Shown here: positions 18,770 to 36,389 of the stretch, piece by piece
How positions within the stretch are numbered: position 1 is the stretch's first letter
Layout of the letters: each line of letters begins with the position of its first letter
DNA from: Adhaeribacter radiodurans
Lineage (GTDB): Bacteria; Bacteroidota; Bacteroidia; Cytophagales; Hymenobacteraceae
Length of the DNA: 64,000 nucleotides
NCBI RefSeq assembly: GCF_014075995.1
Contig: NZ_CP055153.1
Coordinates: forward strand, 2,914,001-2,978,000
Direction of reading: 5' to 3'
Made by a program: the position numbers and the translations under genes
The notes under the pieces: model-generated
What the model saw: only the letters and a program-made list of their open reading frames with translations
Databases searched by the model: none
What the model was told of the DNA's origin: nothing

Positions 18770-18894
18770 CTAAAAAGAATTAGTAAGAACATAGAAAAAA
18801 CCTAATTTTCTCAAAATAATTATCTTAACGCCACCCCATCTCATTAAGCCCGTTTAAAGGGCTAAGGAGATTATATTGCATATACTGATTGGTC

Positions 18895-21054
18895 ATGAAA
18901 AAATTTCACGTCTTATTTTTTCTGTTTTTACATTTCCTTCTAAATCAAAACGCCTTATCTCAAACAGGCAAAGACGGCACCCGGACCATTATCACTTTTA
19001 ATACAGTAGTAAATACACCTCTTGTACTAAACACGAATTACCAATGGAATTTAGCCAATACCTTGCGCTTCGATCCAAACTTGGCTAATACGGCAAATGT
19101 TACTTTTAAATTTACCGTTTTAGACAACGCAGGCGCAAATGATGCTTCTTACGCTACTGTTACCATTCCTATAAACGGAGAACCCGTGGCTGAGGATCAG
19201 ACTAACAGCTTTGCTTTATCAAACTTAGCAGGCATAACTTTATTAGATGCTTTAAACGGAACCGATGATGTGTCTATTAGTACCTTTCGGTTTAGTGTTT
19301 TGCCTTCTGCTTCGCAAGGAGTATTGTACGTAAATAACATACCGGCTACTATTAATACAGCTTTTTCCTGGACTAACCGGAACCAGATTCAATTTGATCC
19401 GGCTATAGGCAATACGGCTAATGTTACTTTTAGCTATATTGTAAAAGATAATGAAAATGCCGAGGATGCTTCTGCCGCGGTATTTACTATTCCTCTAATT
19501 TCTACCGACCAGGATTTAGATAAAGTGGCTGATATAATCGATTTAGACGATGATAACGATGGCATTCCGGATTTACTGGAATCCAATGGTTTCAATCCTT
19601 CGGCCGATGATGATAATGATGGAATTGAAAACTATCGGGACCCAAGCTTCCCTAATGGTGATTACAACAGTGTAACGAAAGTAAATAATTTATTCGATAA
19701 AGACAGGGACGGTATTATTAATGCCTTTGATTTAGATTCAGATGGCGATGGCATTACCGATGTGGTAGAGCAAACTCCCTTTGGAAGGGTTCCCAGTTCT
19801 AACTATAGCGCCAATACCGGTCGCTTAACAAGTCCGGTAGGTGCTAATGGTATCCCGAAGAGTTCCACTACTATTACGGAAGGGAGCCTTAACGATTTTG
19901 ACGGAGATGGCCTATACAACTTCCTCGATTTGGATTCCGATAATGATGGTTTGCGGGATTACCTGGAAGCCCAGGCCTCACCTGGTAATCCTGTAATTAC
20001 GCCTAAAGGCACTGACGCCGATAAAGATGGGATTGATGATAACTATGATGTGACTTGCGGTTGTTCAGCCCCTTCCGGATTAGCCCTGTACCCGGTAAAC
20101 ACCGACGTAGATTCTTTCCCCGATTATCTGGATCAGAACAGTGACGAGGATGCCTACGGCGATGCCATTGAAGCCTACGATAATTCAAACCCGGCGCAGG
20201 TTTCGGGTTATTCCCTTACGGAATTAAAAGATTTAGCTGATCAGTTTAGAGCAAATGCTCTGGCGGCTGGTAACGGCCCGGCAACTGCTTATTACAGCAA
20301 TACAAATGATTCAGATAACGATAGTATTCCGGATTGGTTAGAAGACGATGATGAAGACGGACGTTTGAATTACCTGGAATATGGTTTAAGTTATTACCAC
20401 GATTCGGATAATGATGGCTGGTTAGATTTATTTGACTCTACTACTTTCGGCACGGAACCAATTCCAAATTATGCTTTCCGGCAAAGCGATATACTCATAC
20501 CCTTACCAGTAGGATTAATTAAATTTATTGCCCGGCCGGAGATGCATGGAGTTCAATTGCACTGGGAAACGGCTTCGGAAGAAAAAAATAATTATTTTGT
20601 TGTTGAAAGAAGTAGCGATGGAATTTCTTTTGAAACCATTGGCCAGGTAAAAGGCGTCGGTACGACGCAGCAGCAAACTGCCTATTCTTTCCCCGATAAA
20701 AATCCGCTAAACGGAACCAGCTATTACCGTTTAAAAATAGTAGCCACTGATGGAAATAGCCGATTTAGTAAAATTATTGCCGTTAAACGCGAGAGTAGTA
20801 TTAGCTCCCTTCTTAGGACTTTCCAGAACCCAACAACTGGCGAGTTCACCTTGGAGTTTAGCGCCAAGTCATCCGAAGAAGTGCACATAATTATTACCAA
20901 TGTTTCAGGTCAAGTAATTTATACTCAAAAAAGAACTGCAACGGTTGGTCTTAATGCTTTCCGTTTAGATATAACCGGAGTTCGCAGTGGTACCTACCAG
21001 GTTCAAGTAAGAGGACGGCTACTTAATCTGGTGCAGCGCCTTGTAAAAAATTAA
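18895..21054 (+). CDS. T9SS-secreted protein with Ca-type repeats
   Basis: A 719-aa extracellular protein. It has a signal peptide (MKKFHVLFFLFLHFLLNQ, cleavage near ALSQ), then two related ~90-residue beta modules with repeated GNTANVTF/NTANVTFKF motifs (about residues 30-210). A long run of thrombospondin type 3-like calcium loops follows (DLDDDNDGIPD, DLDSDGDGITD, DLDSDNDGLRD, TDADKDGIDDNYD; about 215-510). Next is a fibronectin-like domain (VQLHWETASEEKNNYFVVER), and the end is a type A T9SS sorting domain. I start at the ATG at 18895; an in-frame TTG lies 6 bases upstream. It is likely a calcium-stiffened surface adhesin. Confidence 0.8.
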   Translation: MKKFHVLFFLFLHFLLNQNALSQTGKDGTRTIITFNTVVNTPLVLNTNYQWNLANTLRFDPNLANTANVTFKFTVLDNAGANDASYATVTIPINGEPVAEDQTNSFALSNLAGITLLDALNGTDDVSISTFRFSVLPSASQGVLYVNNIPATINTAFSWTNRNQIQFDPAIGNTANVTFSYIVKDNENAEDASAAVFTIPLISTDQDLDKVADIIDLDDDNDGIPDLLESNGFNPSADDDNDGIENYRDPSFPNGDYNSVTKVNNLFDKDRDGIINAFDLDSDGDGITDVVEQTPFGRVPSSNYSANTGRLTSPVGANGIPKSSTTITEGSLNDFDGDGLYNFLDLDSDNDGLRDYLEAQASPGNPVITPKGTDADKDGIDDNYDVTCGCSAPSGLALYPVNTDVDSFPDYLDQNSDEDAYGDAIEAYDNSNPAQVSGYSLTELKDLADQFRANALAAGNGPATAYYSNTNDSDNDSIPDWLEDDDEDGRLNYLEYGLSYYHDSDNDGWLDLFDSTTFGTEPIPNYAFRQSDILIPLPVGLIKFIARPEMHGVQLHWETASEEKNNYFVVERSSDGISFETIGQVKGVGTTQQQTAYSFPDKNPLNGTSYYRLKIVATDGNSRFSKIIAVKRESSISSLLRTFQNPTTGEFTLEFSAKSSEEVHIIITNVSGQVIYTQKRTATVGLNAFRLDITGVRSGTYQVQVRGRLLNLVQRLVKN

Positions 21055-26386: not shown

Positions 26387-29300
26387 ATGGAATTATTTCA
26401 TACTCCAATAAATAATGGTACTCGGAAAATACTTTTAGAAAGAACCATATTCTATTTTAAAAACTTATTTTCCCGCACTCTTCTACCTTCTTACTTAATT
26501 AGAATTCTTATTCTGATTATAAGCTTTTATACCTATACCCAAGAAGCATTCGCGGGTGATGGGCGAATAGCAGTTGCTCCAACTAATAGTTTTGGTATTA
26601 GGGGGGTGATGGATTTCTCTGTAAATTTTCGTTACATACCCGCTCCGGCGGATATTACCCGGGTTAGAACGGCCATCGAAAATGCCAGTGATATTATTTG
26701 CGATGCCACTGATGGGCAAATAGTTTTTGGTACGGTTACCATTACGGCTGGTGGAACCAACGATGACCGCGCCGATGTATGGATTTTACCCCAAGGTGGA
26801 CGTTCGGGGGTAAGCTTCTTTTTTAATGGGAGCGGTTTTGGTAATCTGGGTTCTCATATTGATTTGTACCAAGGAGGAATAGATGGAGGAGTTCTGGCCC
26901 ATGAACTAGGCCATTTGGCTTTTGGATTGGGAGATGAATACGATGAACAATGCCGTTTTGGTGGCCCATGCGGTATAGGTCAGGCTTTCGATCCGGGTAC
27001 AATAGATGCCCGGAATAATACTTTAATGCAGCAAAGCGGTATTGACCAAACAGAATTTACGGTAGCGGCAAATCATGATCTTCTTCGGGGCGATGGTACT
27101 AATTGCGTTACCAATAATTGTGGCGGTACTGCCATGGATTGCAGTACCTGTCAGGGATTCAATGGGAACACCAATCGTTTTGAATCTTCACAACATACGC
27201 TTATTCATGGCGGTAATTCAGAATGGCAGATTATTGCCAACAATTACCCTGCTTTGGGAATTGTAATTCCAGCTCTACCCGTAGCAGCTCGACCCGTTAA
27301 TTGCCGGGCTTTTCTCAATATAGTAAATACGGTAAATGCCAGTGATCTGGTTTGTCTGGTAATAGATCGCTCCGGCAGCATGACGGCAAATGATGCCGGG
27401 GGAGCTACCCGCATGGAATTTGCCAAAGCTGCTGCCCGGGCCTTTGTTGATGTTTCACTTGGCTTAGGAAATAATTACCAGCTAGGTTTAGTTTCTTTTA
27501 GTGATGCCGCCACTGTTCATCAACCCGTTCAATTACTAACAACTGCTTATGCCGCCACGTTAAAAAGTTCTATTGATGGAATAAGTGCTGGTGGAAATAC
27601 GGCTATTGGCGACGGATTGCTTGCCGGTGCTTTTGAGATGGTTGGAAAAAAAGGTGCTAATCCTACCCTATTCCTGCTTTCGGATGGGCAAAATAACCGG
27701 GGTACCAATCCTGAATCCGTAATTCCGGTTCTGCGCAGCCGGGGAATCCGCACCTTTACCATTCCGGTGGGCAATGGAGCAGACCGGCCGTTGCTATCTA
27801 ATATTGCCGGTACTACCGGCGGAAGAATGTTAGACGCTCCCACGGCAGATGAACTCCCGCCTATTTACATGGAATTGGCGGCTATTCACAGCGGCAACAG
27901 TTTAGTATTACCCCGTAAGGAATTTTCTTTATTTGGTCAAATTATAATTGGTGCCCCTAAAGGAGCCGATACCCCGAAAGGTGCTTTAGTAGAATTCGAA
28001 AATTATCCAATAAACGTGGAAGCCGATGCGCAGGGATTAGTTGTTTTTATTTCCAACCGTAATCCGGATATTCAGAACTGGTTTCCTACTTTTACCATTA
28101 CTGGTCCGGATGGTAGTGTTATCACCCCTCAAAATCAACCTTTTATCGGTACCGATACCTATTATCAAATCATCCGGATACCCAAACCAGCTCCCGGTTC
28201 CTGGAATATTAAATTAGAATCTGCCAGTGGTAGAGCCACCTTCGGGCATGTGTTAGCTTTTGTTGAAAATCCTTCCCCCGATTTACACGTAGATGCTTTC
28301 CCGAAAGTGGCTTCAGAATCCGATACTATTACTTTATCGGCCATGGCTTCTTACGTAGCTGAAATTGACGAAGGCGTAGAATACAGTGGTTTTATAATGA
28401 GGCCCGATAGTTCCACCGCTCCATTACACTTCACCCGGGACCCATATACCCGCAAAGTTTCGGCTTCCTTCGCCGATTATAATGGCCGGGGAATCTATCA
28501 GGCTACCATCCAGGCCGTTGTTTCGGGCGGGGCTAAATTATTCCAGGGCGAAAGAATTTTTGCTGGTAAAGCTGATCCGGGAATTAATGTACCTTATTTT
28601 ACGCGGACAGCTACGGCTTCGTTTTTCCTGAACACTCCTTCTTTCCCGCCCAGTGGCTCTAATGATCCGGACAAAGATGGCATTCCCACCGATGTAGAAG
28701 ATAAATTCCCCGATGTAGATAATGATGACATCCCTTGTTACCTGGACGAAGACTCCGATAACGACGATATCCCTGATTCGGTGGAAGCGGATAAAGATCT
28801 CAACCAAAATGGCATACTCGACTTTGTCGAACCCAAAGATCCTTCTACTTGTCCCGGGGGCCAGTCTAGTCTTAAACTAGGCAAGATCTCGGTTCAGCGG
28901 CCTACTTGCGGCAACGCCAACGGTAAAATACAAGTTACCGTTTCCGGCGGCGCGGGCCCTTATACCTACAAGTGGAGCCACCTGACTGATTTAGATGCTG
29001 CCTCAGCCAGTAAGCTGCCCGATGGTATTTACAGCGTTATTATTACCGATGCTAAAGGCTGCAGTGTATCTTCTGTTTTTAATTTGCTTCAGGACTGCTC
29101 TAAAAATGTGGTGGTGCAAAACAACTGCCCGGATAAAGTGGTGCAAGGTTGTAAATGGAATTTCCGCTTGAAAGTAGATATGCGCAAATCGGCCGCTCCA
29201 CATAATCTGTTGGGTAGCTTCACCGGTAAACTCACCTGGGATCCGGCTCAGTTAGAAGCTCTCGGAACAGCTCAATTACTAAATAAGTACAAAGGTTTTG

Positions 29301-30484
29301 TTCGGTTAGATAAAGCCGCTGGTACTTTAAGCTTTAATGGCGCTAATTCTACCGGAATGGCCGGGGTGGTAGACATTCTGAATTCCAACTTTATTACCAA
29401 AGCCAAAGCCGGCGAAAAAATCAGCCTGAAAGCAGAATTCTCCGTTATGGCGGCTGCTAAAACCTACGCCAACTTGACTTCTAAATTACTAATCCAGATT
29501 TGTGAGCCAACGGTGAGTAAAGGAGGCGGTATATTAGGCGATGTAAATACAGATGACGCCGTTAATTCGACGGATGGTTTAATTGTTCTGTCTTATGATG
29601 CCGGCAAATCCGTGCCGAAAGGGGCAAAAACCCGGATCGATCAAGGCTTTGGGGATGTGAACTTAGACAAGAAAACCAATTCTGCCGATGGTTTAATAAT
29701 TCTGGATTATGAACTCCGGGGTACCAGTAAATTCCCGGTAGGTACACCTTTCTGTCCGGCTGATGCCAAGGCAGATTCCCGCCTGGCCCAAACCAACAAT
29801 AAAGGTAAAGTTATGATTACGGCTAATGGATCGGTGAATAAGCAAGATGCCTCCTGGATTGAAGTACCCGTAATAGTAAACATGACTCCTACCCAGGAAG
29901 AATTAGGCAGTTTCACCACGACTATTAAGTGGAATACGGCCGCGCTGGAACTCTTAAGCTTTAACGGGGGACAATCGCAAGGTTTTGAAGATCCTATTGT
30001 GAATACCGATGAACTCAAAGCAGGAAAATTAACTATCGTAAATGCTAATCCGGCGGGGGGTAAAGGCGCGGTTCACATATTTACTTTACACTTCAAAAAA
30101 CAAAGTTTACTAAGCGAAAAAGATTTCACTTTGGATTTCTCTAGTTTAGCGAGCGCGCATAACTTCAGTGATTTAACCGCAAATATCCAAACCCAGGTTA
30201 GTTTAACCGATGAAGCATTGGATAATGATTTTGAAGTGGCCCCTAATCCATTTAATCATTCTACCATTGTTCAATATAAAGTTAAAACAGCCACTCAGGT
30301 GGATATAAGTGTGTACAATTCGGTGGGAGAAAAAGTAGCTACTTTAGTGAAAGAAAAAGTAAAAGCGGGCACCCATTCCTATAATTGGAACACTAGCACT
30401 GGTAACTTAATGCCGGGTATGTATATTATCAAAATGCAGGCCGGTAAGATTACGCAAACCCGGAAGGTAATCTATTACAAATAA
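26387..30484 (+). CDS. Secreted CLCA-like metalloprotease/vWA protein with cohesin-dockerin-cohesin and T9SS tail, copy 1
   Basis: A 1365-aa extracellular protein. It has a long basic N-region, a hydrophobic signal core and AFA cleavage near residue 56. A metalloprotease motif HELGHLAFGLGDEY (H172, E173, H176, D183, E184) matches the HExxHxxxGxxDEY pattern of CLCA proteins. It is followed by paired cysteines, then a vWA domain (about 319-500) with full MIDAS (D327, S329, S331, T405, D433). A beta region (500-745), thrombospondin-type calcium loops (about 755-820) and a SprB-like repeat (about 829-905) follow. Next come a cohesin-like domain (about 924-1043), dockerin-like calcium loops (GDVNTDDAVNSTDG and GDVNLDKKTNSADG, about 1049-1111), a second cohesin-like domain (about 1158-1271) and a T9SS sorting domain. 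Domain names are by motif only. Confidence 0.85.
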   Translation: MELFHTPINNGTRKILLERTIFYFKNLFSRTLLPSYLIRILILIISFYTYTQEAFAGDGRIAVAPTNSFGIRGVMDFSVNFRYIPAPADITRVRTAIENASDIICDATDGQIVFGTVTITAGGTNDDRADVWILPQGGRSGVSFFFNGSGFGNLGSHIDLYQGGIDGGVLAHELGHLAFGLGDEYDEQCRFGGPCGIGQAFDPGTIDARNNTLMQQSGIDQTEFTVAANHDLLRGDGTNCVTNNCGGTAMDCSTCQGFNGNTNRFESSQHTLIHGGNSEWQIIANNYPALGIVIPALPVAARPVNCRAFLNIVNTVNASDLVCLVIDRSGSMTANDAGGATRMEFAKAAARAFVDVSLGLGNNYQLGLVSFSDAATVHQPVQLLTTAYAATLKSSIDGISAGGNTAIGDGLLAGAFEMVGKKGANPTLFLLSDGQNNRGTNPESVIPVLRSRGIRTFTIPVGNGADRPLLSNIAGTTGGRMLDAPTADELPPIYMELAAIHSGNSLVLPRKEFSLFGQIIIGAPKGADTPKGALVEFENYPINVEADAQGLVVFISNRNPDIQNWFPTFTITGPDGSVITPQNQPFIGTDTYYQIIRIPKPAPGSWNIKLESASGRATFGHVLAFVENPSPDLHVDAFPKVASESDTITLSAMASYVAEIDEGVEYSGFIMRPDSSTAPLHFTRDPYTRKVSASFADYNGRGIYQATIQAVVSGGAKLFQGERIFAGKADPGINVPYFTRTATASFFLNTPSFPPSGSNDPDKDGIPTDVEDKFPDVDNDDIPCYLDEDSDNDDIPDSVEADKDLNQNGILDFVEPKDPSTCPGGQSSLKLGKISVQRPTCGNANGKIQVTVSGGAGPYTYKWSHLTDLDAASASKLPDGIYSVIITDAKGCSVSSVFNLLQDCSKNVVVQNNCPDKVVQGCKWNFRLKVDMRKSAAPHNLLGSFTGKLTWDPAQLEALGTAQLLNKYKGFVRLDKAAGTLSFNGANSTGMAGVVDILNSNFITKAKAGEKISLKAEFSVMAAAKTYANLTSKLLIQICEPTVSKGGGILGDVNTDDAVNSTDGLIVLSYDAGKSVPKGAKTRIDQGFGDVNLDKKTNSADGLIILDYELRGTSKFPVGTPFCPADAKADSRLAQTNNKGKVMITANGSVNKQDASWIEVPVIVNMTPTQEELGSFTTTIKWNTAALELLSFNGGQSQGFEDPIVNTDELKAGKLTIVNANPAGGKGAVHIFTLHFKKQSLLSEKDFTLDFSSLASAHNFSDLTANIQTQVSLTDEALDNDFEVAPNPFNHSTIVQYKVKTATQVDISVYNSVGEKVATLVKEKVKAGTHSYNWNTSTGNLMPGMYIIKMQAGKITQTRKVIYYK

Positions 30485-30541
30485 TAAAGTTTAGTTATGT
30501 AATACAAAGCCTGCTCCAAAGCAGGCTTTGTATTTATATTA
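28611..30541. repeat. 1931-nt direct repeat, copy 1 of 2
   Basis: This segment matches 34459-36389 at a constant offset of 5848 bases. It covers codons ~742 to the stop and the terminator. It ends one base past the shared tatttatatt. No difference was found in the lines compared, and the translations are identical. Upstream of 28611 the two genes diverge at once. Confidence 0.92.
30501..30534 (+). terminator. Terminator of the first giant gene
   Basis: A 14-bp perfect stem aatacaaagcctgc (30501-30514) with 30521-30534 and loop tccaaa. It is identical to the terminator at 36349-36382 because it is part of the repeat. Confidence 0.85.
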
Positions 30542-30695
30542 AAAGCAACGGCTAATCCGTTTCATAATAAAAAGTATTTGTCTTAAATTAGGTTTAGTGC
30601 ATAAATAAGATTATGGCTTATTCAGAGATAATTTAAGGTGTACCGGGAGATCAAATGGTAGGTTTTAAGCGTGTCTTTTATTAAATTCTGACTTT

Positions 30696-31241
30696 ATGAA
30701 AAGTATAATTATAATATTACTTGTGTTGGCACCGGTACTTACTTGGGCAGATCAACCACCCTGTTGGTGCGATTTCAGCATTCAATCGGCTAATAAACAT
30801 TTTGTTGCCCACATTAAAGGAGTAAAGAACTCAACTAAAACCAACCCGCCTTATGGACAATGGGAAATATTTGTATATAAAAAAGAAAATAAAGATAGTA
30901 CCCTGCTTTGGAAAAGCCACTACCTGTACGATGGTTACACCGATGGCATATTATCGAACGATGGACAAACTTTTGCCTACGTAAATTATTGGTACCAAAA
31001 TCAGGCTCCGGTCATTCAGCTATACCAAAATGGTAAACATACCGGTAGCATTGCGGGTACTGCTTTTAACATTCCTTCTCCTAAACTAACCACTACCGTA
31101 TCGCATAAATTGTGGCTGAGCCGGGATGGTCAATCTTATGAGTTTACCGAGGATGACCAGAAGAAATATCTTTTAAAAATAAATACTATTGATGGTAAAA
31201 CTCATCTGATTGATTGTTTCAAAGGAGAAATTAAAAATTAA
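30696..31241 (+). CDS. Secreted protein of unknown function, 181 aa
   Basis: An exported protein with a signal peptide (MKSIIIILLVLAPVLTWA, cleavage before DQPPCWCD). The mature part is beta-rich. Two early cysteines (CWC) and a late one (LIDCFKG) could form disulfides. Repeated motifs like SNDGQTFAYVNYW and LSRDGQSYEF suggest a WD/TolB-like two-blade fold, but I do not recognise a family. It lies between the two giant paralogues on the same strand, after the first one's terminator, and has its own start region. Confidence 0.65.
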   Translation: MKSIIIILLVLAPVLTWADQPPCWCDFSIQSANKHFVAHIKGVKNSTKTNPPYGQWEIFVYKKENKDSTLLWKSHYLYDGYTDGILSNDGQTFAYVNYWYQNQAPVIQLYQNGKHTGSIAGTAFNIPSPKLTTTVSHKLWLSRDGQSYEFTEDDQKKYLLKINTIDGKTHLIDCFKGEIKN

Positions 31242-32240
31242 GTATTAGTACCTCAAGTTATATCATGAGTATGGGAGGTTCCATTAATTTTTTTTATAAT
31301 TAGAGAAAAAGAAGGATAATGAATAATAAACTTGAATAATCAATTTGTATTAATATATTTGTTTTACTCAGATTTTTATTAAAATCTAACTAATGATTTA
31401 TTAAAGTGTAATTCCTCCAATTCATATTATCTATTTTTTAATTAATTTTTATCAAATTATTACTTATTTTAATTTAAGACGTAGCTTATCATTTTAAAAA
31501 GCAATATTTAGAAAAATATAACACGTTGCTTAAATGCGAATAATCCAGTAGTCAGGTGTAAGTTTGGAATTTACTTCAAAGAAGTAAATTCTCAATTCTA
31601 CCATCCGATTCAAGTACATGTTGGATCCTTCCTTTTCTATCCCTTGCCTTCGCAAATAAGATGTAGTCTATTGATGATAGTTCCTTGCTACTTTCCATTA
31701 ACCAAATAGTTGTTTGGGGTGTTATTATTGTTAAAATTTGCCGAAATATTTAATCTGGATTTACTAAGCATTCAAATCACTTCTTTAATAATTCATTGAT
31801 TAAAATTTGAATTAATGAGTTATTTAGTATAATTTATTTCATCGATGCTTTGTAATTGATACTACTACTACTTGGCTTCCTCAAGTACAACATCCTACCA
31901 AAGATGAAATTATATTTCCTGACACCTTTTATTGAGGAAATAGCTTTAACTTAGAAACTATTAAAAAATCAAACAACTTTAATAAGGCCATATTGATCCT
32001 TATTTTTTGTCCTGCAGACACAAATTCAGTTCATTTTTTTAATCAAGCCTGAATTGTGTAGCGTTATGACGCTCTTCATCTTCCATATTAATGGAAAAGA
32101 AATAACTCAATCTTCCTGAGTAGAATTGTAATTACTTGAAGTCTTCCTTTCTCTTCCGAGAAGTTAAACATGCTTTCTCCAAGAACTATCCTGTTATTGT
32201 TAAACCAACTTTATTTTATGTAAGCTAAACTATTACACTT
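31242..32240. other. Gene-free AT-rich region upstream of the second giant protein
   Basis: About 1 kb without a credible ORF. It is very AT-rich, with long stretches such as 31400-31480. Near the 3' end cttccgagaagtta (about 32153-32166) resembles tttccgaaaagtta (about 26353-26366) upstream of copy 1. This could be a shared control site or chance. Confidence 0.45.
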
Positions 32241-35200
32241 ATGAAATTTTCTTTATTAAATTATTTGTGTTACGCTTGGCATTTCCTTTTGGAAAAAAAA
32301 AGAATTCCAGTACAAAAGACTTTATCCTACCCAGCTTTCTATATTCTAAATTTTAGAATAGTCTGTATTTTCTTGGGTTCTTTTTCGATAAGTCAACAGG
32401 CACTTGCCGGAGACGGGCAAGTTGTAGCAGCTCCAGCTAATAGCTTTGGTATTCGCGGGGTAATGAACTTCTCCATTAACTATCGTTATATACCTGCTCC
32501 AGCGGATATAACACGGCTGCGACAAGCCATTGACAATGCGAGCGACATTCTCTGCGATGCCACAGATGGACAAATAGTTTTTGGTACGGTTACTATTACG
32601 GCCGGCGGAACTAATGAAGATCGCGCTGACGTATGGATTTTACCGCAAATCGGGCGTTCTAATTCTCCTTTAAGTGGATTTAACAACTTAGGGTCACACA
32701 TTAATCTGTTTCAGAATGCAGTAAATATAAATGGGGCAATACTGGCACATGAACTCGGGCACATGGCTTTTGGCTTAGGAGACGAATACGCGGAACAATG
32801 CCGGGGGGAAGGCCCTTGTGGCATTGGTCCGGCTTTTGACCCAGGTACCATTGATGCACGAAACAATACTTTAATGCAACAAAGCGGTATTGACCAAACA
32901 GAATTCACAGTTGCCGCCAACCATGATCTTCTTCGGGGCGATGGTACCAGTTGCGTTACTAATACTTGCGGCGGTACGGCAATGAATTGTAGTACGTGTC
33001 CAGGTTTTAATGGTACTACCAATCGTTTTGAGTCTTCTAGTCATACACTCAGATTTGGGGGGCTATCGGAATGGCAGGTACTGTCTAACAATTTTCCAGC
33101 CCTGGGGCTCGCAATTCCAGCTCTGCCCGTAGCAGCTCAACCGGCTAACTGCAGGGCATTTCTCAACGTTGTAGAAACGGTAAATGCCAGTGACTTGGTT
33201 TGTCTGGTTATGGATCGCTCCGGCAGTATGCTGGAAGAAGATGCAGGAGATACTACCCGGCTAGAATTTGCCAAAGCCGCGGCTCGGGCCTTTGTGGATG
33301 TATCAGTGGGTTTAGGAAACAATTATCAATTAGGTTTAGTATCGTTTAATGATGCCGCCACCGTTGATCAACCCGTTCAATTACTTACCTCTACTTATGT
33401 ACCCACTATAAAAAACTCAATAAATGCATTAAATGCCGGTGATAATACGGCCATTGGTGATGGCCTTTTAGCTGGCGCTTTTGAAATGATTGGTAAAAGC
33501 GGTGCCAATCCTACCCTTTTTCTGCTTTCTGATGGGCAAAACAACCGGGGGACCAACCCCCAAGATGTTATTCGAGTGTTAAAAGATAGACATATCCGCA
33601 CTTTTACGATACCCGTCGGAAACGGTGCTGACCGGCCGTTGTTATCCGATATTGCCTCAACTACCGGCGGAAGAATGTTAGATGCGCCTTCTGGAGATGA
33701 ACTCCCCCCTATTTACATGGAATTAGCGGCTATTCACAATGGCAGTAGTTTAGTATTACCGCGCAATGAATTTTCTTTATTCGGGCAAATCATCATTGGT
33801 GCTCCCAAACCAACCGGAAAACCCCAGGGTGCTTTAGTAGAATCTCAGAATTATTCGGTAAACGTGGAAACGGATGCGTTAGGATTGGTCGTTTTTCTAT
33901 CCAACCGTAATCCCGATGTCAAAACCTGGTTTCCTACTTTCACTATTACCGGTCCGGATGGCAGCCTAATCACTCCGCAGGATAAACCTTTCATAGGGTT
34001 TGATACTTATTATCAAATTCTTCGCGTACCTAGACCCGCTGCCGGCGTCTGGAATATTAAAGTGGAATCTGCTACTGGGTGGGCTACCTACGGGCATATT
34101 TTAGCTTTTGTCGAGAACCCTTCTCCGGACCTCTACGCGGATGCTGTTCCTAGAATAGCTACTCCCGAGGACACCGTTACCATATCGGCCATGGCTTCAT
34201 ACCTAGCTGATTTAGAGGAAGGAGTTGATTATAGTGGTTTTGTTCTCCGGCCAGACAGTTCCTATGCGCCTTTACAATTTACGAAGGATCCATTTACCCG
34301 AAAAGTAACTGCTTCTTTTTTCGATTATAATTACCGGGGAATCTATCAGGCTACCATCCAGGCCATTGTTTCTGATCAAGCCAAAGTACTTCCGGGTGAA
34401 ATTATTTTTCCGGGTCCTGCTAATCCGGGAATTAATGTAAAACCATTTACCCGCATCACTACGGCTTCGTTTTTCCTGAACACTCCTTCTTTCCCGCCCA
34501 GTGGCTCTAATGATCCGGACAAAGATGGCATTCCCACCGATGTAGAAGATAAATTCCCCGATGTAGATAATGATGACATCCCTTGTTACCTGGACGAAGA
34601 CTCCGATAACGACGATATCCCTGATTCGGTGGAAGCGGATAAAGATCTCAACCAAAATGGCATACTCGACTTTGTCGAACCCAAAGATCCTTCTACTTGT
34701 CCCGGGGGCCAGTCTAGTCTTAAACTAGGCAAGATCTCGGTTCAGCGGCCTACTTGCGGCAACGCCAACGGTAAAATACAAGTTACCGTTTCCGGCGGCG
34801 CGGGCCCTTATACCTACAAGTGGAGCCACCTGACTGATTTAGATGCTGCCTCAGCCAGTAAGCTGCCCGATGGTATTTACAGCGTTATTATTACCGATGC
34901 TAAAGGCTGCAGTGTATCTTCTGTTTTTAATTTGCTTCAGGACTGCTCTAAAAATGTGGTGGTGCAAAACAACTGCCCGGATAAAGTGGTGCAAGGTTGT
35001 AAATGGAATTTCCGCTTGAAAGTAGATATGCGCAAATCGGCCGCTCCACATAATCTGTTGGGTAGCTTCACCGGTAAACTCACCTGGGATCCGGCTCAGT
35101 TAGAAGCTCTCGGAACAGCTCAATTACTAAATAAGTACAAAGGTTTTGTTCGGTTAGATAAAGCCGCTGGTACTTTAAGCTTTAATGGCGCTAATTCTAC

Positions 35201-36332
35201 CGGAATGGCCGGGGTGGTAGACATTCTGAATTCCAACTTTATTACCAAAGCCAAAGCCGGCGAAAAAATCAGCCTGAAAGCAGAATTCTCCGTTATGGCG
35301 GCTGCTAAAACCTACGCCAACTTGACTTCTAAATTACTAATCCAGATTTGTGAGCCAACGGTGAGTAAAGGAGGCGGTATATTAGGCGATGTAAATACAG
35401 ATGACGCCGTTAATTCGACGGATGGTTTAATTGTTCTGTCTTATGATGCCGGCAAATCCGTGCCGAAAGGGGCAAAAACCCGGATCGATCAAGGCTTTGG
35501 GGATGTGAACTTAGACAAGAAAACCAATTCTGCCGATGGTTTAATAATTCTGGATTATGAACTCCGGGGTACCAGTAAATTCCCGGTAGGTACACCTTTC
35601 TGTCCGGCTGATGCCAAGGCAGATTCCCGCCTGGCCCAAACCAACAATAAAGGTAAAGTTATGATTACGGCTAATGGATCGGTGAATAAGCAAGATGCCT
35701 CCTGGATTGAAGTACCCGTAATAGTAAACATGACTCCTACCCAGGAAGAATTAGGCAGTTTCACCACGACTATTAAGTGGAATACGGCCGCGCTGGAACT
35801 CTTAAGCTTTAACGGGGGACAATCGCAAGGTTTTGAAGATCCTATTGTGAATACCGATGAACTCAAAGCAGGAAAATTAACTATCGTAAATGCTAATCCG
35901 GCGGGGGGTAAAGGCGCGGTTCACATATTTACTTTACACTTCAAAAAACAAAGTTTACTAAGCGAAAAAGATTTCACTTTGGATTTCTCTAGTTTAGCGA
36001 GCGCGCATAACTTCAGTGATTTAACCGCAAATATCCAAACCCAGGTTAGTTTAACCGATGAAGCATTGGATAATGATTTTGAAGTGGCCCCTAATCCATT
36101 TAATCATTCTACCATTGTTCAATATAAAGTTAAAACAGCCACTCAGGTGGATATAAGTGTGTACAATTCGGTGGGAGAAAAAGTAGCTACTTTAGTGAAA
36201 GAAAAAGTAAAAGCGGGCACCCATTCCTATAATTGGAACACTAGCACTGGTAACTTAATGCCGGGTATGTATATTATCAAAATGCAGGCCGGTAAGATTA
36301 CGCAAACCCGGAAGGTAATCTATTACAAATAA
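32241..36332 (+). CDS. Secreted CLCA-like metalloprotease/vWA protein with cohesin-dockerin-cohesin and T9SS tail, copy 2
   Basis: This 1363-aa paralogue of the protein at 26387 has the same domain order. It has a long signal sequence with ALA cleavage before GDGQ. The metalloprotease motif is HELGHMAFGLGDEY (H170, E171, H174, D181, E182, Y183). The vWA MIDAS begins at D325 (DRSGSM) with NTAIGDGL and LLSDGQNN. Residues from about 740 to the end are identical to copy 1, including the calcium loops, SprB-like repeat, cohesin-like, dockerin-like and sorting domains. The N-terminal half differs at roughly one residue in five. All catalytic and MIDAS positions are kept in both, so both are probably functional. 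Confidence 0.85.
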   Translation: MKFSLLNYLCYAWHFLLEKKRIPVQKTLSYPAFYILNFRIVCIFLGSFSISQQALAGDGQVVAAPANSFGIRGVMNFSINYRYIPAPADITRLRQAIDNASDILCDATDGQIVFGTVTITAGGTNEDRADVWILPQIGRSNSPLSGFNNLGSHINLFQNAVNINGAILAHELGHMAFGLGDEYAEQCRGEGPCGIGPAFDPGTIDARNNTLMQQSGIDQTEFTVAANHDLLRGDGTSCVTNTCGGTAMNCSTCPGFNGTTNRFESSSHTLRFGGLSEWQVLSNNFPALGLAIPALPVAAQPANCRAFLNVVETVNASDLVCLVMDRSGSMLEEDAGDTTRLEFAKAAARAFVDVSVGLGNNYQLGLVSFNDAATVDQPVQLLTSTYVPTIKNSINALNAGDNTAIGDGLLAGAFEMIGKSGANPTLFLLSDGQNNRGTNPQDVIRVLKDRHIRTFTIPVGNGADRPLLSDIASTTGGRMLDAPSGDELPPIYMELAAIHNGSSLVLPRNEFSLFGQIIIGAPKPTGKPQGALVESQNYSVNVETDALGLVVFLSNRNPDVKTWFPTFTITGPDGSLITPQDKPFIGFDTYYQILRVPRPAAGVWNIKVESATGWATYGHILAFVENPSPDLYADAVPRIATPEDTVTISAMASYLADLEEGVDYSGFVLRPDSSYAPLQFTKDPFTRKVTASFFDYNYRGIYQATIQAIVSDQAKVLPGEIIFPGPANPGINVKPFTRITTASFFLNTPSFPPSGSNDPDKDGIPTDVEDKFPDVDNDDIPCYLDEDSDNDDIPDSVEADKDLNQNGILDFVEPKDPSTCPGGQSSLKLGKISVQRPTCGNANGKIQVTVSGGAGPYTYKWSHLTDLDAASASKLPDGIYSVIITDAKGCSVSSVFNLLQDCSKNVVVQNNCPDKVVQGCKWNFRLKVDMRKSAAPHNLLGSFTGKLTWDPAQLEALGTAQLLNKYKGFVRLDKAAGTLSFNGANSTGMAGVVDILNSNFITKAKAGEKISLKAEFSVMAAAKTYANLTSKLLIQICEPTVSKGGGILGDVNTDDAVNSTDGLIVLSYDAGKSVPKGAKTRIDQGFGDVNLDKKTNSADGLIILDYELRGTSKFPVGTPFCPADAKADSRLAQTNNKGKVMITANGSVNKQDASWIEVPVIVNMTPTQEELGSFTTTIKWNTAALELLSFNGGQSQGFEDPIVNTDELKAGKLTIVNANPAGGKGAVHIFTLHFKKQSLLSEKDFTLDFSSLASAHNFSDLTANIQTQVSLTDEALDNDFEVAPNPFNHSTIVQYKVKTATQVDISVYNSVGEKVATLVKEKVKAGTHSYNWNTSTGNLMPGMYIIKMQAGKITQTRKVIYYK

Positions 36333-36389
36333 TAAAGTTTAGTTATGTAATACAAAGCCTGCTCCAAAGCAGGCTTTGTATTTATATTA
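34459..36389. repeat. 1931-nt direct repeat, copy 2 of 2
   Basis: This is the partner of 28611-30541 and includes the 3' half of the gene, the stop codon and the terminator. The abrupt start of identity inside the coding region and its end just past the terminator fit gene conversion or a recent partial duplication. Confidence 0.92.
36349..36382 (+). terminator. Terminator of the second giant gene
   Basis: aatacaaagcctgc (36349-36362) pairs perfectly with 36369-36382; loop tccaaa. It is the same as the hairpin after copy 1. Confidence 0.85.

Follow-up and report, generated by a model that had tools for sequence, protein, structure and literature searches.

Diverged CLCA-like protease/vWA heads on an identical cohesin-dockerin-type tail in two neighbouring, predicted surface proteins of Adhaeribacter radiodurans

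The window analysed here, a stretch of 64,000 nucleotides from Adhaeribacter radiodurans (NZ_CP055153.1, positions 2,914,001 to 2,978,000), encodes two giant proteins in tandem on its forward strand, and our analysis confirmed both of the open reading frames (ORFs) that had been predicted there: gene A (26387..30484; 1365 aa) and gene B (32241..36332; 1363 aa). Each product is predicted to carry a head composed of a CLCA-like protease, a vWA domain and a beta-rich region, followed by a stalk and by a tail in which two cohesin-like domains flank a dockerin ahead of a sorting domain of the type IX secretion system (T9SS). The 3' halves of the two genes are identical over 1,931 bp, an identity that the original prediction had overlooked. 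Comparison of the sequences indicates that the tail half of one gene was copied onto the other very recently, and that the heads had parted long before.

The identical 3' halves of genes A and B

The identical block occupies 28611..30541 (+) in A and 34459..36389 (+) in B, and is the sole direct exact repeat of at least 60 nt in the window; beyond it, the longest exact run common to the two genes is 31 nt. Its 5' edge falls inside codon 742 of A, near the junction of head and stalk, and its 3' edge lies 57 bp past the stop codon, beyond a terminator-like hairpin recognised by eye (30501..30534, + in A), where homology also ends. Across the 623 codons of the block there is not a single difference. 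Outside it, the proportion of synonymous differences (pS) between A and B is 0.65 in the protease region, 0.55 in the vWA domain and 0.58 in the beta-rich region, and the values between A and its homologue in another genome of the same genus (G003) are higher still, at 0.74, 0.67 and 0.71, respectively. An old split of the heads and a very recent copying of the tail are indicated because a pS of 0.55-0.65 in the heads stands against zero differences in the block. As A is nearer to the G003 protein in the protease and beta-rich regions and B is nearer to it in the vWA domain, the direction of copying is ambiguous.

Our preferred explanation, which we hold tentatively and at slightly less than even confidence, is that A and B represent two protease/adhesin heads on a shared tail for homotypic assembly into a surface polymer. 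Both proteins would be exported through the T9SS to the cell surface. The head would be metal-dependent and comprise a predicted zinc protease whose site is of the CLCA/M64 type, a vWA domain in which the metal-ion-dependent adhesion site (MIDAS) is intact, and the beta-rich region; Asp-rich repeats and a SprB repeat would form the stalk, and the first cohesin-like domain, the dockerin, the second cohesin-like domain and the T9SS sorting domain would form the assembly tail. The dockerin of one molecule would find its partner in the cohesins of a second A or B molecule, and perhaps also in those of a 3230-aa protein from the same genome described below. Assembly of this sort would yield a surface polymer of mixed composition, its heads binding proteins and cutting or processing them, and the identical tails would keep both heads able to enter the same polymer.

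The block itself could also be explained by a single, neutral gene conversion between ordinary paralogues, in which case the identity of the tails would be functionally meaningless, whichever reading of the domains is adopted. We observed one event in one genome, and downstream of the genes identity and homology end together, which fits such an event; against it, the 5' edge is close to the boundary between head and stalk, and the entire stalk-and-tail half is included in the tract. We consider this explanation possible but unlikely.

The predicted protease and vWA domain of the head

In A, an N-terminal export region identified by eye, likely a signal peptide (residues 1-56; 26387..26554, +), precedes a zincin-like protease and Cys-rich region delimited by alignment (residues 57-310; 26555..27316, +). 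The predicted HExxHxxxGxxDEY motif was present in all six compared proteins (A, B and four homologues). It reads HELGHLAFGLGDEY in A (residues 172-185, beginning at H172; 26900..26941, +) and HELGHMAFGLGDEY in B (residues 170-183, beginning at H170; 32748..32789, +), as found by alignment and a motif check; its expected count in A, given the composition of the protein, is 5e-8. Cys 105, 189, 195, 240, 245, 252 and 255 of A are invariant among five aligned sequences (A, B and three homologues), all except Cys 105 lying in the Cys-rich region between the protease core and the vWA domain. Since AlphaFold2 (AF2) gave no usable model of the protease region, the zincin fold that we infer around H172 is drawn from the motif, as is the probable identity of the head as a protease. 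A PDB profile search with the protease alignment returned nothing relevant, and the best 50 Foldseek rows for the model of A residues 57-750 looked like vWA matches and were not used for the protease.

The likeness to CLCA proteins that had been claimed for this region holds for the motif and for the order of protease, Cys-rich region and vWA domain with MIDAS, but does not extend to family membership. The protease region fell short of the cut-off of the Pfam CLCA family PF08434 (best score 16.3 versus 25.6 bits, E 0.0072, for a 29-residue match around the motif). CLCA was the top-ranked Pfam family for four of five isolated protease domains, each time under its cut-off. A PF08434 search of the window genome gave no matches, with 14 controls equally silent, and a search of 395 genomes of the phylum likewise gave none, with the 14 controls silent too, so that this result is uninformative on absence. 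The protease is therefore best described as resembling CLCA, judged by Pfam and NCBIfam models together with the published motif and spacing, and we do not assign it to the CLCA family.

Membership of the M64 family was also considered and rejected, since scores remained below the cut-off (13.2 bits for B and 11.2 for the homologue from Flavilitoribacter nigricans, versus 26) and similarity was limited to the motif. Profile comparison with 18 M64 domains gave a probability of 66.7% over 22 columns, which dropped to 0.2% once the motif was masked; these 18 were taken from 23 M64 matches, leaving out one with an internal stop (L102) and fragments (L115-L118). A separate M64 peptidase with FG-GAP repeats occurs in a genome of the family to which Flavilitoribacter belongs (L059, 58-2160, -). 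A plasmid search matched 95 records, and five of the 20 listed were examined and rejected: H2, H3 and H11 are VWA proteins with BatD-type genes as neighbours, H4 is a lone VWA protein, and H1, an archaeal plasmid-search match, is a vWA frame in whose listed ORFs the protease motif was not seen by eye.

The vWA domain with MIDAS was recovered as predicted. In A it spans residues 322-490 (27350..27856, +; Pfam, NCBIfam and alignment) and in B residues 320-488 (33198..33704, +; Pfam), scoring 59.1 and 55.7 bits, respectively, against a Pfam cut-off of 23.8, and the MIDAS residues D327, S329, S331, T405 and D433 (A numbering) are all intact. Of the vWA-type NCBIfam models, hCaCC scored highest in both proteins, far under its own cut-off. 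In the compared proteins the motif His lies 155-160 residues from the MIDAS Ser. The beta-rich region that follows in A (residues 506-741; 27902..28609, +) is covered by a low-confidence model and gave only a sub-threshold match to GBD_Hemicentin (E values of 0.0018 for A and 0.069 for B), and the Pfam scan matched fn3 in neither protein.

These features bear on the suggestion that A and B process themselves as CLCA proteins do, with the protease cutting its own chain to free the protease and vWA domain, the tail staying on the surface and the cohesin and dockerin domains serving as spacers. The motif equals the HEXXHXXXGXXDE of mammalian CLCA proteins as given in PMC11231702, in which the relevant residues of CLCA4 are H155, E156, S316 and T383, and the distance of 155-160 residues from motif His to MIDAS Ser compares with 161 in CLCA4 (H155 to S316); the ranking of hCaCC points the same way, for all its low score. 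Against this, the CLCA domain is under its cut-off, we found no evidence for a cleavage site, and both calcium-binding loops of the dockerin are kept in A, B, the G003 protein and the F. nigricans protein, which is beyond what a spacer needs. Self-processing, for which we found no sequence evidence in A or B, seems improbable to us as the main role of this architecture.

Stalk, tail and relatives

The stalk of A contains Asp-rich, TSP3-like repeats noted by eye (about residues 752-815; 28640..28831, +) and a SprB repeat (residues 839-864; 28901..28978, +; Pfam), the latter over its curated cut-off in both A and B. In the tail of A, cohesin-like domain 1 (residues 907-1041; 29105..29509, +; profile comparison, AF2 and Foldseek) is followed by a type I dockerin with two calcium-binding loops (residues 1050-1105; 29534..29701, +; Pfam), cohesin-like domain 2 (residues 1131-1284; 29777..30238, +; profile comparison) and a T9SS type A sorting domain (residues 1286-1362; 30242..30472, +; Pfam and TIGR04183). 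The same elements of B are cohesin-like domain 1 (34953..35357, +), the dockerin (residues 1048-1103; 35382..35549, +; Pfam), cohesin-like domain 2 (35625..36086, +) and the sorting domain (residues 1284-1360; 36090..36320, +; Pfam and TIGR04183), its cohesin-like domains being recognised by identity to those of A and by profile comparison.

Both the dockerin and the T9SS tail of the original prediction exceeded curated cut-offs in A and B. Dockerin_1 (PF00404) did so narrowly, at 25.1 versus 22.9 bits, and scored 26.2 in the G003 protein and 24.3 in the F. nigricans protein. The sorting domain reached 37.8 bits in A and 33.7 in B against a Pfam cut-off of 27, and 41.6 and 40.1 against a cut-off of 23 for TIGR04183. 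Because the sorting domain is over its cut-off and the window genome encodes SprA (SprA_N, 507.6 bits), the predicted export of A and B by the T9SS is well founded. No CAZyme or carbohydrate-binding module was among the Pfam matches of A and B, and we rejected a cellulosome identity on this ground.

The predicted cohesins were supported by profile comparison for both domains and by AF2 and Foldseek for domain 1, and not by direct Pfam or PDB profile searches. Domains 1 and 2 are themselves homologues (98%, P 4.9e-14). When compared with 27 cohesin matches from 11 genomes, a set that includes the two from the 3230-aa protein, as well as three that score below the cut-off and one that passes it only in combination with its neighbours, they gave a probability of 91.2% jointly (P 9.8e-7) and of 79.5% (domain 1) and 68.9% (domain 2) singly; the highest value was 2.0% for seven other regions of the same proteins and 2.4% for 120 column shuffles. 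Against the two cohesins of the 3230-aa protein only, domain 1 gave 83%. The best AF2 model of domain 1 had a pLDDT of 79.9 and a pTM of 0.74. Among its best 50 Foldseek rows, 46 name cohesin, three are cellulosome-scaffold entries and one is unrelated; all seven with E<=0.001 name cohesin, and the list is headed by a non-cellulosomal cohesin from the archaeon Archaeoglobus fulgidus (2xdh). Query TM-scores were moderate, at 0.48-0.64 over the 49 cohesin or scaffold rows. A cohesin fold for domain 1 is thus supported by the predicted model, and a cohesin-like nature for domain 2 is supported through its homology to domain 1.

A third giant protein of the same genome, of 3230 aa (L065, 4339-14031, -), carries beta-helix and PKD domains and then the succession cohesin, dockerin, cohesin and T9SS tail. 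Each of these tail domains is over its cut-off, and its two cohesins are the only Pfam cohesins of the window genome; when the protein was scanned in full length at E 0.001, the dockerin and the tail were reported and the cohesins were not. This protein, which looks exported, also contains three internal repeats of about 560 aa, spaced 1731 nt apart, with 443-511 of 560 residues identical. Its presence raises a heterotypic alternative, a small non-cellulosomal scaffold in place of a homopolymer. The cohesins of A and B would here bind dockerins carried by further T9SS proteins, the 3230-aa protein among them, and the dockerin of A or B would plug into the Pfam-type cohesins of the 3230-aa protein. 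The cohesins and dockerin over cut-off would supply the partners, but G003 holds the gene and yet has no cohesin detectable by Pfam, and the window genome has just four dockerin matches: A, B, the 3230-aa protein and a match of 23 positions within a frame that by eye resembles a TonB-dependent receptor. We regard such a scaffold as unlikely.

Heads and tails of this kind appear to be exchangeable, because the 3230-aa protein and a 1370-aa protein from the same genus (G004; L121, 1626-5738) join other heads to a cohesin pair ahead of a T9SS tail, and a 1000-aa homologue from a further genome (G582; L120, 2448-5450, -) joins the head to another C-terminus. In the G004 protein, beta-propeller repeats and Ig-like domains are combined with a T9SS tail and with two Pfam cohesins, between which a dockerin-like loop is seen by eye only. 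The G582 homologue, which is not truncated by the end of its contig, contains the protease motif, a vWA domain and Asp-rich repeats; no dockerin or T9SS tail was matched in it, and we accordingly dropped the idea that every homologue bears the cohesin-dockerin/T9SS tail. Its C-terminus gave a sub-threshold match to an outer-membrane beta-barrel (19.0 versus 28.7 bits) which, if real, would be consistent with display of the head on the cell surface.

The protein family is rare and its domain set unusual. G003 holds one copy in the same setting (by eye hemF, the homologue, a 182-aa gene and a PAP2-type gene), with vWA, dockerin and T9SS tail over curated cut-offs, as they also are in F. nigricans, where the entire architecture is contained in 1348 aa. 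In a set of 197 relatives, eight of them from the genus with the window genome counted, whole-head matches occurred, among the matches listed, only in G000 and G003 (two of the eight), other rows being confined to the vWA domain; cohesins over cut-off were found in 10 of the 197, the window genome counted. The phylum sample gave one match in 395 genomes, the window genome itself. In the family of F. nigricans (Lewinellaceae, Saprospiria by NCBI), four of 199 genomes matched, three with members of the A/B protein family, of which the Lewinella copy runs past its contig end, and one with an M64 protein. The full architecture was found in four proteins from three genomes.

Elsewhere in the window, a 181-aa exported-looking protein is encoded between A and B (30696-31241), a 182-aa relative of which adjoins the single-copy gene in G003 (L053, 13005-13553). 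It is followed by about 1 kb of AT-rich DNA upstream of B (31242-32240) with no listed ORF of at least 100 aa. Asp-rich repeats also occur in a further exported-looking protein, encoded at 18889-21054, whose C-terminus resembles a T9SS tail by eye.

The proposed assembly model and known systems

Docking between neighbouring A and B molecules is suggested by the domain set and by G003, where the gene occurs in a genome with no Pfam cohesin. Several observations weigh against homotypic assembly. The G003 argument carries little weight, given that the divergent cohesins of A and B escape Pfam as well, a direct PF00963 search giving no match for the six cohesin-like domains of three proteins; PDB profile searches with each cohesin-like alignment found nothing relevant, and domain 2 reached just 25% against the two cohesins of the 3230-aa protein. 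For domain 1, mean pLDDT over the five AF2 models was 79.9, 79.4, 72.8, 53.1 and 52.6, of which the two values near 53 count against the fold, and the model of A residues 57-750, built from four sequences, had a mean pLDDT of 40.1, with 21-38 per ten-residue block in the protease region. The likeness of the protease to M64 vanishes with its motif, and its CLCA matches are all sub-cut-off. The head is independent of the cohesin-dockerin/T9SS tail, because the G582 homologue has the one without the other. The identity of the block may reflect a single neutral event, and G003 holds one copy only. Docking specificity is not readable from sequence, and docking itself is a prediction. Duplication of one 3' half over the other as an assembly or polishing artefact, which 1.9 kb of exact identity might suggest, is highly improbable, the genome being in 2 contigs at a completeness of 100 and the copies differing in their flanks on both sides.

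Homotypic assembly of A and B could be extended to a self-processing, self-assembling and non-cellulosomal surface system, in which T9SS-exported zincin/vWA heads sit on a homotypically polymerising cohesin-dockerin-cohesin connector, heads as varied as protease/vWA (A and B), beta-helix/PKD (the 3230-aa protein) and beta-propeller (the G004 protein) enter a single type of polymer, and the connector is held in common through gene conversion as the heads drift apart; we view this extension as speculative and improbable. Cohesin-dockerin pairs are best known as connectors of cellulosomes, and here they share one chain with a CLCA-like protease/vWA head in bacteria that export by the T9SS. The two genes offer a natural experiment, with two heads on one identical connector. 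If this connector polymerises, surface assembly would here rely on a calcium-dependent pair that is already well understood, and gingipains would be a plausible analogue. A and B also add a Bacteroidota CLCA-like family with catalytic motif and MIDAS intact, which helps in asking where the pairing of protease and vWA arose.

We found no paper combining a CLCA-type protease, vWA, cohesin, dockerin and T9SS tail in the literature searched, mostly outside subscription journals, which agrees with the claim that no bacterial system with the full set had been described; bacterial CLCA proteins as such have been known since 2013 (Lenart et al., PMC3650047). Table 2 of that paper contains no Bacteroidetes, and its main text does not mention cohesin or dockerin. 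A and B are like metazoan CLCA1/CLCA4 and bacterial CLCA proteins in their HExxHxxxGxxDE motif, Cys-rich stretch and vWA-MIDAS at similar spacing, followed by a beta-rich region, but differ in a protease below the Pfam CLCA cut-off and in a C-terminal half of cohesin-dockerin-cohesin and T9SS tail. The M64 (IgA peptidase) motif HExxHxxxxLxDEY is also present in five of the six compared proteins. According to PMC3650047, M64 binds a second zinc through the E of DEY together with three Cys 90-100 residues further on; this second zinc site is unmatched in position because the conserved Cys of the A/B family lie 17-83 residues after the first His (H172 in A), and there is no likeness outside the 22 columns.

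For the tail, A and B share the cohesin fold outside a cellulosome with proteins such as that of Archaeoglobus fulgidus (2xdh), but differ in the protease/vWA head, in T9SS export and in having two cohesins around a dockerin in one chain. A parallel in organisation is offered by Porphyromonas gingivalis with HagA and the gingipains RgpA and Kgp; in RgpA and Kgp, according to PMC5266723, different catalytic heads sit on adhesin regions with repeats identical between genes. A and B share this logic of head and adhesin loosely; their domains differ, with no C25 protease or cleaved-adhesin domain among their Pfam matches and with cohesin and dockerin domains instead, and A and B are neighbours. 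Taken together, A and B are a variation on known kinds of system and not a new kind, set apart by an unusual domain set and by the recent copying of their assembly half.

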